Of a stretch of DNA of 55,135 nt, positions 39,150-51,014 are shown piece by piece; the first letter of the stretch is position 1; the number at the start of each line of letters is the position of its first letter. The stretch spans positions 1-55,135 of the forward strand of contig JAGHVK010000089.1 of the NCBI GenBank assembly GCA_018064345.1. The letters are read 5' to 3'. The DNA is from Candidatus Cacconaster merdequi (GTDB lineage: Bacteria > Bacteroidota > Bacteroidia > Bacteroidales > UBA932). The position numbers and the translations under genes are program-made. The notes beneath the pieces are model-generated. The model saw only the letters and a list, made by a program, of their open reading frames with translations. It had not been told where the DNA came from and made no database searches.

Positions 39150-39836
39150 ATGGGAAAGAGTTTCAAATTCAATTTCTTCGATTGGTTCCTGATAGCAGGT
39201 GTGGTGGGGATGAGCATAATTATGGCTGTCGTCAACAAACACATCGACATTCTGGATTTCATAGGGGTGTGCACAGGGATTGTCAATCTGGTGTTGTGCG
39301 CAAAAGGCAACATCTTGAATTACGCGTTCGGAATAATATATAATGCCATATATGCATATACGGCATTTTCGACGTCTCTCTATGCGGACGCTGCAATATA
39401 TGTGGCATATTATCTTCCGATGCAGTTCGTCGGATGGTTTAACTGGAAGAAGAACAGCAACCGGTCAAACGGAACGGTGAATGTGAGACATCTTTCCTGG
39501 AGGATGGCGTTCATCCTTCTGGCGATAGCTGCGGTGCTGCTTCCTCTGCTGGCAAAGATTCTCGCCCTTCCTGTCATAGGCGATGCCCAGCCGTGGACAG
39601 ATGCCGCTACGACAGCAGCTTCGATAATCGCTATGTATATGATGGTCAAGGCAATTGCGGAACAGTGGTATATCTGGCTGATACTGGACATACTCCAAGT
39701 GATAAAGTGGCTGACGGCTACGATATCCGGGACCGAGCATGCAGAGATGTGGCTCATTATGTTCTCCTTCTATACTGCTAACGCAGTGTATGGATTGATC
39801 CAGTGGAACAGAATTGCGAAGACAGAAAATAAATAA
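39150..39836 (+). CDS. pnuC: PnuC-family vitamin transporter
   Basis: The 228-residue membrane protein has about seven hydrophobic helices and the PnuC look: GIVNLVLCAKGNILNYAFGIIYNAIYAY near residue 50, then PMQFVGWFNW and, near the end, a second internally similar helix block (QVIKWLTATISG). PnuC proteins are facilitators for nicotinamide riboside; relatives PnuT and PnuX carry thiamine and riboflavin, and the substrate cannot be assigned here. No NadR or thiamine kinase gene is adjacent. It sits 15 bases after the HExxH gene and 14 bases before galK. Confidence 0.85.
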   Translation: MGKSFKFNFFDWFLIAGVVGMSIIMAVVNKHIDILDFIGVCTGIVNLVLCAKGNILNYAFGIIYNAIYAYTAFSTSLYADAAIYVAYYLPMQFVGWFNWKKNSNRSNGTVNVRHLSWRMAFILLAIAAVLLPLLAKILALPVIGDAQPWTDAATTAASIIAMYMMVKAIAEQWYIWLILDILQVIKWLTATISGTEHAEMWLIMFSFYTANAVYGLIQWNRIAKTENK

Positions 39837-47785: not shown

Positions 47786-48562
47786 CTACCGGTCGAGGCT
47801 TGTCTGGAATGTTGTCTTGTTCACATCCCATCTTATCTTGCACCAATCCAGCAATCTGTCTTCCTGATAATAATTGACGGAGGCATTACCTTTCATATTG
47901 ACGCTGAATGAAATTTCATAGTCGGAGTTTGACTGGAGTGAAAAACTCTTTCCGAAGGATGTGTATATAGCCTTTTCTCCGCTGCTGAATTCAGCCCTGA
48001 AGTTGTTTTGCAATTCTTCATACTTTCCTGTGAATGTCACACATAATTGAGGGTATCCGTCCTTTTCGTCAGGAAAGAGGATCGATTCGAATTCAAGAAG
48101 ACTTACATCATATAATGTAAAATAGCCGTAGTTGTCAGAGTTCGGACAGTTATTCGTCATTTTCCACCCGCCTTCAATGCAGGTCAAGCCGTAGGACAGA
48201 ATAACTTCATTGTCAGAATACGGAGAACAGATGTTCACCTGCCATTCAGTACCCTCCTGGCGTATCGACTGTCCGTCTGTGACCAGATAACCTATGCCGT
48301 CAATGGAATATGTACCGTAGTAGTAATTATAAGATATGGAACTGTACTTTTCCTGATTTTTTCCCGAATCATCCTCTCCGATGAAATCATCGACCAGCAG
48401 CGCCTGGCTCAAGGCAAGTACGGCATAGGATGTAGGGATGGAACATAAATCCTCAGCCATCGAACTTATTTCATAGGAAGTGCGGTGTGACTGTGGCTTT
48501 GGAAGGTAACTGCAACTTGCAAGAAGTGCCACCGACAATGTATATGCTAATATTCGTCTCAT
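47786..48562 (-). CDS. Lipoprotein of unknown function
   Basis: The 258-residue product has a lipobox (LLASC) after a short basic N-terminus. The mature part is rich in Ser, Tyr and beta-strand patterns, with repeated polar turns (SSISYNYYYGTYSIDG) and several Trp and Cys residues. I recognise no family. ATG 48562 is chosen; TTG 48574, directly after the upstream stop, is an alternative. It follows the barrel gene with almost no gap, so the two likely form an operon and may act together at the outer membrane. It is convergent with sufD. Confidence 0.6.
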   Translation of the reverse strand: MRRILAYTLSVALLASCSYLPKPQSHRTSYEISSMAEDLCSIPTSYAVLALSQALLVDDFIGEDDSGKNQEKYSSISYNYYYGTYSIDGIGYLVTDGQSIRQEGTEWQVNICSPYSDNEVILSYGLTCIEGGWKMTNNCPNSDNYGYFTLYDVSLLEFESILFPDEKDGYPQLCVTFTGKYEELQNNFRAEFSSGEKAIYTSFGKSFSLQSNSDYEISFSVNMKGNASVNYYQEDRLLDWCKIRWDVNKTTFQTSLDR

Positions 48563-48574
48563 AACCTTGCTCAA

Positions 48575-49204
48575 TCAGAATCTGTAACCTGCGCCCATCT
48601 GTACTCCGCAATATGACGATCCTGCACCGGTCTCGGCAAAAACGAACCATTTGCGGCCTACTTCAATTCCGAACGGAACAAATTGTCCCTGAATACACAA
48701 TACGGAGCTGTCCATTCCAATCTTGAATCCGAACCCGAGTCCGACCTCTCCATAAAGACGGACCATATCCTTGTTCATATAATTGAGTCTTGCCTCAGGC
48801 ATCAGTATCAGAACTGCCGCACGGTGTTTGTACGAAGTCCCTTGAATTACGTTGAAATTGGTGAAAGACAAAGGCGTGAAACCTATGGAGGTGTTCAACG
48901 TGAACCGTTTGCTGAACGAATATGAGAAATCTGCACCGAACGAGCAATCAGCAGAGATCTCGGAAGAGTAGTCGCAGTATATGTAATTCATTCTCCCGCC
49001 GTCCCAGTGATAATATTCGGAGGACAGGTAGTACTTTGACCCGCCTTTTAACATTAGTGCCTGGTTTGCAAGATAGGTGCTGTACCATACTCTTACGGAG
49101 CGTTTCATCTGTCCGGCAGGTTTATGCTCCTGTCCGTAGGCAAGGGTGCCGGCGGCGGACAGAAAGAGAACGGCAGCCAGTATCAACGAAAAAGAGTGTT
49201 TCAT
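48575..49204 (-). CDS. Outer-membrane beta-barrel protein (OMP_b-brl-like)
   Basis: The 209-residue protein has a signal peptide (to about residue 24, LAYGQ). Its sequence is a series of amphipathic strands (FSYSFSKRFTLNTSIGFTPLSF, RLYGEVGLGFGFKIGM, GIEVGRKWFVFAETGAGSSY) and it ends in GYRF, the terminal aromatic residue of typical barrels. It resembles small eight-strand porin-family proteins of Bacteroidetes. Function is unknown; pairing with the downstream lipoprotein is the only clue. Confidence 0.72.
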   Translation of the reverse strand: MKHSFSLILAAVLFLSAAGTLAYGQEHKPAGQMKRSVRVWYSTYLANQALMLKGGSKYYLSSEYYHWDGGRMNYIYCDYSSEISADCSFGADFSYSFSKRFTLNTSIGFTPLSFTNFNVIQGTSYKHRAAVLILMPEARLNYMNKDMVRLYGEVGLGFGFKIGMDSSVLCIQGQFVPFGIEVGRKWFVFAETGAGSSYCGVQMGAGYRF

Positions 49205-49217
49205 CGTTCCAATGTTT

Positions 49218-50201
49218 TTAGTAACCTTGTGCTTTTATTTCAAGTTCAGCTCCTTCAGGAGTTACAAGTGCCGCTCCTACTTCCGGCTTGGCCAAATGTC
49301 CTATTATATCCCAATCCTGAAAATCCTTGCGTATCACATCGTGTTTTTCGATAGGGACGGTGAAAATGAATTTGTAGTCGTCCCCTCCGTTCATAGCTGC
49401 AGTGACAGCATCCATATTGATTTCCTCGGCCATGGCAAAAGTTTGGGAGGAGATAGGGATTTTCTCGACATACACCTTGGCTCCGAAACCGGTGTCGCGT
49501 GTCAGTTGGAGGATGGCTGCACCCAAGCCGTGGGTGAGGAAATAACCGCGGCCGGGATATACTTCCGCTTCAATGAATCTGCTGATGGTATCCGGCTTTA
49601 TTTCCGGGTTCAGGTAACTTGCCAGAACCGCCTTGTATTTGCTCAGATCTGGCTGTTTTTCGGTTCCCATAAACGCAACTTTCTCTCTTTCAAGAACGTG
49701 CATTCCCATATATGCCGCTCCCAAATGCCCGCTGAGGCAGATGAGGTCCATACTCTTTGAGGCAGGAATCTTCTCCAGAATCCCCCTCTTCTGGACTCCA
49801 CAGGCGCAAAGGCTGATGCACAGACCATTGACGGATGGATTCAGGTCAAGGGAAATGTGTTTTATCGAGTGCTCGTTGCAGGCAGCAGTGATTCCTTCCC
49901 AAAGGGCTTCCGTATCTTCAAAGTACAGTTTTTTGGAAATACCCAGATTCACTGAAAGGGACACCGGAGTGCGGAAAGCAGCATACAAATCACCCAGGAC
50001 GTTCAGTACGGCTTTGTAACCCAAGTGCTTGAGAGGTGTGTAAACGAGGTCGAAATCGATACCTTCCAGCATTATCTTGTGTGCTGCCGCACATTCTCCC
50101 TTTTCGGTTATGGTCAATGGATGTTCGTTTGTGAATCCTGCTTTTTCCAGTAGAGAGGCGATTGCCTTCTGCTTGCCTATCGATGATATTTCAGTACGCA
50201 T
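49218..50201 (-). CDS. ThiL/AIR synthase-fold protein lacking ThiL catalytic residues
   Basis: The 327-residue protein is similar overall to thiamine-monophosphate kinase (ThiL, PurM superfamily): FDLVYTPLKHLGYKAV (50-65), LICLSGHLGAAYMGMHVLEREK (153-174), EKIPISSQTFAMAEEINMD (246-264), GGDDYKFIFTVP (272-283). But the GDDAA metal motif is replaced near residues 30-45 (ITEKGECAAAHKIMLEG), GGD-T by HISLDLNP (115-122) and the DISDGL motif by FLTHGLGA (221-228). It is therefore probably a pseudo-enzyme or has another activity. The upstream frame to 50408 overlaps ispE and is not coding; ATG 50201 follows a -7 box. Confidence 0.8.
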   Translation of the reverse strand: MRTEISSIGKQKAIASLLEKAGFTNEHPLTITEKGECAAAHKIMLEGIDFDLVYTPLKHLGYKAVLNVLGDLYAAFRTPVSLSVNLGISKKLYFEDTEALWEGITAACNEHSIKHISLDLNPSVNGLCISLCACGVQKRGILEKIPASKSMDLICLSGHLGAAYMGMHVLEREKVAFMGTEKQPDLSKYKAVLASYLNPEIKPDTISRFIEAEVYPGRGYFLTHGLGAAILQLTRDTGFGAKVYVEKIPISSQTFAMAEEINMDAVTAAMNGGDDYKFIFTVPIEKHDVIRKDFQDWDIIGHLAKPEVGAALVTPEGAELEIKAQGY

Positions 50202-50218: not shown

Positions 50219-50226
50219 CAAAGTTA
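50219..50226 (-). promoter_or_regulatory. -7 element of the ThiL-like-barrel-lipoprotein unit
   Basis: The minus strand reads TAACTTTG, an exact -7 box 18 bases before ATG 50201. It abuts the plus-strand ispE promoter. Confidence 0.5.
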
Positions 50227-50276: not shown

Positions 50277-51014
50277 ATGATTGTATATCCTAACGCAAAA
50301 GTCAATCTCGGGCTTTATGTGACAGAAAAACGTCCTGACGGTTACCATAATATCGAGACATTGTTCGTTCCTGTGCCAGACCTCTGCGATGTTCTCGAAG
50401 TGGTTCATTCCGATACCTTTTCAGTGAAAGTTTACAATCTTGATATAGAAGACACTCTCTGTACAAAAGCGTACAGACTTCTGGCAGATGAGTTTGACCT
50501 TTCACCGGTGGCCATCAACCTCTACAAGAATATTCCCGTCGGCGCTGGTCTGGGAGGTGGTTCCGCAGATGCTGCGTTCACTCTCAAGGCTCTCAATGAG
50601 ATATTTTCCCTCAATCTTTCCGATGAGATTCTTGCCGGGTATGCAGGACGGATAGGAAGTGATTGTCCGTTCTTCATATACAACCGCCCTATGACAGCTA
50701 CCGGTCGCGGGGAGATACTTGATCCTTATGACTTGTCCCTTGCGGGGCGGAGCATAAAGGTATTCCCTCAGGATGTGTTTGTTTCCACTAAAGAGGCTTA
50801 TGCGGGAATCATTCCACGAAAGCCTCAGATTGATTTGAAGACAGCGCTTTCACACCCGATGGAAGAGTGGAAGGATGTACTGTTCAACGATTTTGAAGAG
50901 GGAATATTTGCAAGATACCCTCAATTGGCCTCGGTCAAAGAGCATCTTTACGAAGAGGGCGCGGTGTATGCGGCGATGTCCGGCAGCGGATCCTCTATCT
51001 TCGGAATATTCTAG
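50277..51014 (+). CDS. ispE: 4-diphosphocytidyl-2-C-methyl-D-erythritol kinase
   Basis: IspE is the GHMP kinase that phosphorylates CDP-methylerythritol in the MEP pathway to isoprenoids. The 245-residue protein shows motif 1 PNAKVNLGLYVTEKRPDGYH, motif 2 PVGAGLGGGSADAAF (about residues 83-97) and motif 3 AAMSGSGSSIFGIF at the C-terminus. It is a little short (usual about 270-290) because the C-terminus ends right after motif 3. The last 20 bases overlap the convergent lipoprotein gene. Confidence 0.95.
   Translation: MIVYPNAKVNLGLYVTEKRPDGYHNIETLFVPVPDLCDVLEVVHSDTFSVKVYNLDIEDTLCTKAYRLLADEFDLSPVAINLYKNIPVGAGLGGGSADAAFTLKALNEIFSLNLSDEILAGYAGRIGSDCPFFIYNRPMTATGRGEILDPYDLSLAGRSIKVFPQDVFVSTKEAYAGIIPRKPQIDLKTALSHPMEEWKDVLFNDFEEGIFARYPQLASVKEHLYEEGAVYAAMSGSGSSIFGIF

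Follow-up and report, generated by a model that had tools for sequence, protein, structure and literature searches.

A thiamine-monophosphate kinase relative without most of its metal-site aspartates is retained in one family of Bacteroidales, probably for a non-kinase role

The window analyzed here, a stretch of 55,135 nucleotides from Candidatus Cacconaster merdequi (contig JAGHVK010000089.1), encodes on its minus strand, at 49218..50201, a protein of 327 residues that profile and alignment relate to ThiL. We call it ThiL*, for a ThiL-derived gene without the canonical metal site. The frame contains no internal stop, as the first-pass annotation had said, and its claim that the ThiL scaffold is kept also holds, since the protein is a full-length homologue: it aligns with the intact Bacteroidales ThiL L079 over 336 columns at 39% identity, PF00586 (AIRS) scores 33.8 bits against a gathering cut-off of 24, and the best solved-structure matches by sequence are the ThiL proteins AaThiL (3C9R) and AbThiL (5DD7), whose source organisms, Aquifex and Acinetobacter, are named in PMC6416309. 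The ThiL model TIGR01379 matches residues 31-327 with 118.6 bits, under the NCBIfam cut-off of 184.15. PF02769 (AIRS_C) gives no match at E 1 in the window protein, and among three scanned relatives it falls under its cut-off in two and is absent from the third; PF00586 places the window protein in the PurM/AIR synthase-related superfamily, and PF02769 does not. Among named relatives, Candidatus Cacconaster equi is the nearest, with 80% identity to the ThiL* of the window.

Divergently from ThiL* runs ispE (50277..51014, plus strand), with a start codon chosen in this analysis. The sequence TAACTTTG (50219..50226, minus strand) lies 25 bases upstream of ThiL*, and we take it to be a Bacteroidetes-type -7 box. 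Of 26 loci examined, 22 have a TAnnTTTG box in the 110 bases upstream, 20 of them between -21 and -33, a count made without a chance control. The promoter proposed earlier retains its -7-type box, but the site goes unreported in a scan for paired -33 and -7 boxes, the total of which is at chance level. Downstream, two co-directional genes on the minus strand follow at gaps of 13 and 0 bases and encode a possible outer-membrane barrel (48575..49204, 209 residues, under Pfam cut-offs) and a possible lipoprotein (47786..48574, 262 residues, LPAM_1 under its cut-off). This spacing is compatible with the three genes forming one unit headed by ThiL*, as had been claimed, but the assignment of the barrel stays below the Pfam cut-offs. 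Among the open reading frames of 77 other loci, none clusters with either gene; the neighbors are not conserved, so that the suggestion of a setting informative on function is not supported, and we dropped the operon as a clue.

A gene for a PnuC-family transporter (PF04973; 45439..46026, plus strand) is found inside a suf cluster, whose gene names rest on our reading of the proteins; in many relatives, too, a PnuC gene lies in the suf cluster, and the cluster neighbors ThiL*. The window holds a second PnuC-family transporter at 39249-39812. There are suf genes in the flanks of 27 of 48 ThiL* loci (18 of the 31 with more than 5 kb on each side) and of none of 28 other ThiL loci, flank lengths being uneven, and PnuC adjoins both SufC and SufB/D in 18 loci. 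We dropped this linkage as a clue to function because dnaE and gpmI, also named from reading, are conserved on the opposite side in many suf-linked loci, which makes it look like general synteny. Neither do we count the suf-linked PnuC as a thiamine carrier, since other PnuC paralogues are found near thiD (G010, G016) or at a distance of roughly 2 kb from a TPP riboswitch (two of seven loci scanned); at least three PnuC paralogues are present in 29 of the 37 genomes of the genus. Scans of the window and of 11 relatives found no TPP riboswitch close to ThiL*.

In PaThiL, according to PMC13254938, metals are bound by Asp30, Asp47, Asp75, Asp122 and Asp211, His54 contacts TMP, and the active site is said to include Asp29 and Asp214 as well (see also the AbThiL paper, PMC6416309). 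We placed the window copy on PaThiL numbering in an alignment of 116 rows, 40 of which have all seven of these aspartates. It carries K34 at D29, a deletion at D30, K42 (50076..50078, minus strand) at D47, F221 at D211 and H224 at D214, and retains D71 at D75 and D119 at D122; measured by the seven aspartates of ThiL (D29 D30 D47 D75 D122 D211 D214), the window copy has two. The alteration of the ThiL motifs is thus confirmed by alignment, with corrections of detail. The catalytic aspartates had been reported as gone, and five of seven are lost, but D71 and D119 are still there. SLDLNP had been read in place of GGD-T, and the motif is indeed changed, SLDL (117-120; 49842..49853, minus strand) standing at GGDT, but the aspartate of GGD persists in it as D119, between L118 and L120 that are near-fixed in the clade described below. 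DISDGL had been read as THGLGA; it is changed, but the aligned residues are FLTHGL (221-226; 49524..49541, minus strand), and the earlier reading is two residues off. The first-pass annotation had named metal aspartates retained at shifted positions as evidence that would count against it, and the alignment contains none beyond D71 and D119 at their own columns. Other parts of the protein have been kept. EGIDF (46-50; 50052..50066, minus strand) is intact, its D49 aligned with the His54 of PaThiL (PMC13254938), and NGGDDYK (271-277; 49371..49391, minus strand) preserves the GG-D motif with its terminal E replaced by K. EGxDF, SGxLG and GGDDY are among the features still present in ThiL*. At Ser74-Asp75 stands G70-D71 (49989..49994, minus strand); G70 is fixed in the clade and the D71 position is variable (E, D, P, G and others).

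Scanning one genome per species with a peptide pattern, a method that detects close relatives, we obtained 69 loci. A tree of 103 rows, with the motif columns excluded, was computed by quick search with SH-aLRT support and without bootstrap; in it, 57 rows form a clade of single origin (SH-aLRT 100, branch 1.01) nested inside vertical Bacteroidales ThiL, and Rikenella is its sister with a support of only 81. ThiL* is present in 70 of the 72 clade genomes, the unread ones being assigned by score, and was not found in G009 and G012, which are 65% and 51% complete. Among 119 Bacteroidales genomes, all but the window's own at least 90% complete, the clade profile scores above 400 bits in only three, those of family f1. 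Matches came from 114 of the 119; 80 loci were fetched, 18 were covered earlier in the analysis, and 15, most of them low-ranked, were left out. All seven aspartates are kept in 76 of the 80 fetched loci, and the four exceptions are two f1 genomes that are members of the clade, L209 of family f2, and L202. Loss of the metal site elsewhere in Bacteroidales is rare.

The replacements within the clade follow a consistent pattern. Leaving aside the intact and the Rikenella copies, 67 rows can be compared, among them L078 from outside the clade and the fragment L121. The D30 position is empty in 61 of these; D47 has become K or R in 50 (one of them L078) and D211 has become F in 62, whereas D214 has given way to R or K in 52 and to H in three. 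GGEDYE ends in K or R in 52. The D122 position is D or E in 65. The GDD loop is shortened in most copies. Of the seven metal-site aspartates, D122 is retained in 79% of the 66 clade copies and each of the other six in less than 20%. Key aspartates have been lost preferentially: loss affects six of the seven key columns and, among the remaining conserved columns, 23 of 87 (Fisher p = 0.003). A preferential retention of Bacteroidales-specific residues was not detected (12/24 vs 25/60, p = 0.63). Mean net charge over nine formerly acidic positions goes from -9.0 in 110 intact vertical rows to +0.9 in the 66 clade rows, the window's included; it is -8.7 in seven classical rows and -3 in eight Rikenella rows. 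New residues have also settled: G70, W101, L118, L120, G219 and F221 stand at 94% or more of 64 clade rows, at positions where, by comparison with 34 intact rows, one near-fixed residue has been swapped for another.

Median dN/dS in the clade is 0.078 (20 of 24 chosen pairs, those with dS of 0.05-1.5), to be compared with 0.045 in six of seven chosen intact Alistipes pairs. The pair of the window and L002 is saturated at silent sites and was left out of the median. One ThiL* copy, at 5060-6070 of L121, bears an in-frame stop, a sign either of decay or of an error in that one assembly; none was seen in the remaining copies read, some of them truncated at contig ends. Catalytic residues have been lost under purifying selection, a combination expected of a pseudo-enzyme, and the earlier assertion that this is not simple decay is supported by the single-origin clade, the purifying selection and the fixed replacement residues.

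Thiamine genes have been surveyed in gut Bacteroidetes (PMC5613172), with ThiL given as the last step. The 72 clade genomes divide in how they could make TPP: thiamine pyrophosphokinase (TPK) without a second ThiL is found in 49, a second ThiL without TPK in 20, and neither in three; in no genome are both found. The window's genus (37 genomes, its own included) accounts for 27 with TPK, seven with an over-cut-off ThiL, none with both and three with neither, and the 35 further clade genomes for 22 with TPK, 13 with a second ThiL and none with both. Under independence this lack of overlap would have a chance of 6e-15, a figure that ignores kinship. Of the last 13 second ThiLs, 12 are over the cut-off, those of G091 and G094 only as summed pieces in one frame, and that of G092 is counted from a 55-bit piece of 120 residues on the same contig as its thiE. 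All seven aspartates are present in the seven second ThiLs read, those of the genus; the other 13 of the 20 are assigned from score alone, and the partly degraded Rikenella copies also pass the cut-off (248-261 bits, with unsplit second copies at 289-317).

The second ThiL of the genus forms a separate classical clade (seven rows, support 100), and six of the seven genomes that have it also carry ThiL*. Classical ThiL adjoins thiE in G009 (L072 3276-6471), G002, G006, G010, G016, G021 and G022. In L072 it belongs to a thiM-thiE-thiL-thiD row, thiM being named from reading of the protein, downstream of a TPP riboswitch, and a TPP riboswitch is found at two of the seven classical ThiL loci. In 11 fetched loci (one of family f2) TPK is adjacent to other genes, and the riboswitch is absent. 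The window's genome is 84% complete and 6% contaminated. It has thiE at L071 8125-8763 (contig C98), other thi genes not being adjacent, and a search of this assembly found no thiD, TPK, or classical or intact ThiL, so that the proposed check for a second intact thiL turned up none at this completeness. In G031 (93% complete) ThiE, TPK and any other ThiL are all absent. For TPP, ThiL* would not be needed in 69 of the 72 genomes, where TPK or a second ThiL is present; in the window's own genome, 84% complete, neither was found.

The first-pass annotation had offered a pseudo-enzyme, a regulator or an enzyme with a different reaction. As a set these options are supported, a candidate TPP enzyme being available elsewhere in 69 of 72 genomes. 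We hold with considerable confidence that ThiL* is not a canonical ThMP kinase, and it is very likely that it does something other than produce the active form of vitamin B1. More specifically, we think it probable, judging from the sequences, that ThiL* is a former ThMP kinase, now a pseudo-kinase kept for a non-kinase role. The vertically inherited ThiL of one Bacteroidales family would have lost its chemistry as a thiamine-monophosphate kinase in a single event, with TPK or a second ThiL taking over the kinase job; ThiL*, presumably still folding as a ThiL dimer, would have been retained for something else. The site that formerly received Mg-ATP and the TMP phosphate is now neutral to basic, and this shift of charge, together with the motifs that persist, suggests that it may bind a phosphorylated ligand with no metal involved. 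Since we recognize no new catalytic set, the function of the protein would be ligand binding and not phosphate transfer, most plausibly as a regulator or scaffold. That it is specifically a metal-free ligand-binding regulator is a tentative proposal.

ThiL* shares with ThiL (TIGR01379; AaThiL, AbThiL, PaThiL) full-length homology, the AIRS domain, EGxDF, SGxLG and GGDDY; unlike ThiL, it has lost five of seven metal aspartates in the window copy, has a shortened GDD loop, scores below the curated cut-off, and sits outside a thi cluster; neither the window nor the 11 relatives scanned showed a TPP riboswitch. As in pseudokinases and other dead paralogues, of which the AdoMetDC prozyme is reportedly an example, the fold is conserved and catalytic residues are missing. 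However, ThiL* has the fold of a PurM-superfamily metabolite kinase and not of a protein kinase, and it is without a known partner.

ThiL* could instead be an enzyme with a different reaction, metal-free or one-metal, that employs D49, D51, D119 and D275 together with the new K42, W101 and H111. The near-constant D or E at the D122 position fits this, as do D49, D51, D275 and W101, invariant among the 41 members of alignment A1, and the arrival in the clade of H111 (91%) and W101 (98%). The persistence of D122 as D or E, of EGxDF and of GGDDY may mean that some ligand or even some chemistry remains. However, these residues do not make up a constellation of catalytic type that we recognize, many of the 40 residues common to ThiL* and intact ThiL are glycines, prolines and hydrophobics, and no conserved pathway neighbor hinting at a substrate was found, so that we regard a new reaction as unlikely.

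Dead paralogues sometimes act as partners or activators, and either candidate partner, classical ThiL or TPK, occurs in genomes bearing ThiL*. We find this role improbable for ThiL*. It occurs with TPK alone (49 genomes) or with a second ThiL alone (19 of 20, G009 being without ThiL*), which leaves no single constant partner, and in the loci read it was not seen adjoining either gene.

That ThiL* is still a ThMP kinase with an unusual metal site would account for the five clade genomes with ThiE and TPK and no other ThiL, in which TMP must either lose its phosphate first or serve as a substrate of ThiL*, and for the window's genome, with ThiE and no other ThiL. Nevertheless, the ThiL* copies of those five (L014, L015, L020, L021, L023) all lack D47, D211 and D214, and a second ThiL would be needless in the 20 of 23 TPK-less genomes that have one. 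TMP can also reach TPP through dephosphorylation followed by TPK. The window's genome and the five fit either this route or residual ThiL* activity, and we judge a surviving kinase highly improbable. Slow decay of a dispensable gene, to which the stop in L121 and the slightly higher dN/dS than in intact ThiL could be ascribed, is scarcely credible given a dN/dS far below 1, near-fixed new residues, presence in 70 of 72 genomes and the lack of such a stop in the other copies read, some of which end at contig ends.

Matching ThiL models as they do, ThiL* copies could receive the annotation thiamine-phosphate kinase, and reconstructions of vitamin B1 metabolism could then credit these bacteria with a step absent from them. 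A family of gut and environmental Bacteroidales retains, under selection, a ThiL relative with a rebuilt metal site. This is a clear case of a metabolic kinase whose replacement took two routes, TPK in some genomes and a second ThiL in others, and which selection nonetheless retains, so that a hidden non-kinase function can be put directly to the test. In the literature searched, where coverage of subscription journals is small, we found no description of degenerate ThiL in Bacteroidales.

Partly degraded copies are seen elsewhere in the order. The vertical ThiL of Rikenella/Millionella (L056-L062, L064; eight rows) has lost D47, D75, D122 and D214 and kept GDD and D211; family f2 (L078, L209) has D47K and D211N, the same pattern in both; and L202 (family f53) has D47L, D75S, D211S and D214S. 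Like ThiL*, these are vertical Bacteroidales ThiLs with metal aspartates lost and an open frame, but they keep GDD and part of the site, and the Rikenella copies are above the ThiL cut-off. They are probably separate events, because different aspartates were lost. It is conceivable, if rather doubtful, that Bacteroidales ThiL has an old second, non-kinase role that keeps the gene once TPK or a ThiL of another clade supplies TPP. If so, Rikenella, family f2 and L202 would represent earlier stages, and the window's family would have finished the loss, with a metal-free basic pocket at the Mg-ATP site. All seven Rikenella genomes have ThiE, none has TPK, and six have, by score, an additional over-cut-off ThiL. 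In Alistipes, G103 and G105-G108 have two over-cut-off ThiLs per genome and no TPK or ThiE matches; overall, five of six Alistipes genomes combine two such ThiLs with the absence of TPK, and the sixth has one ThiL and TPK.
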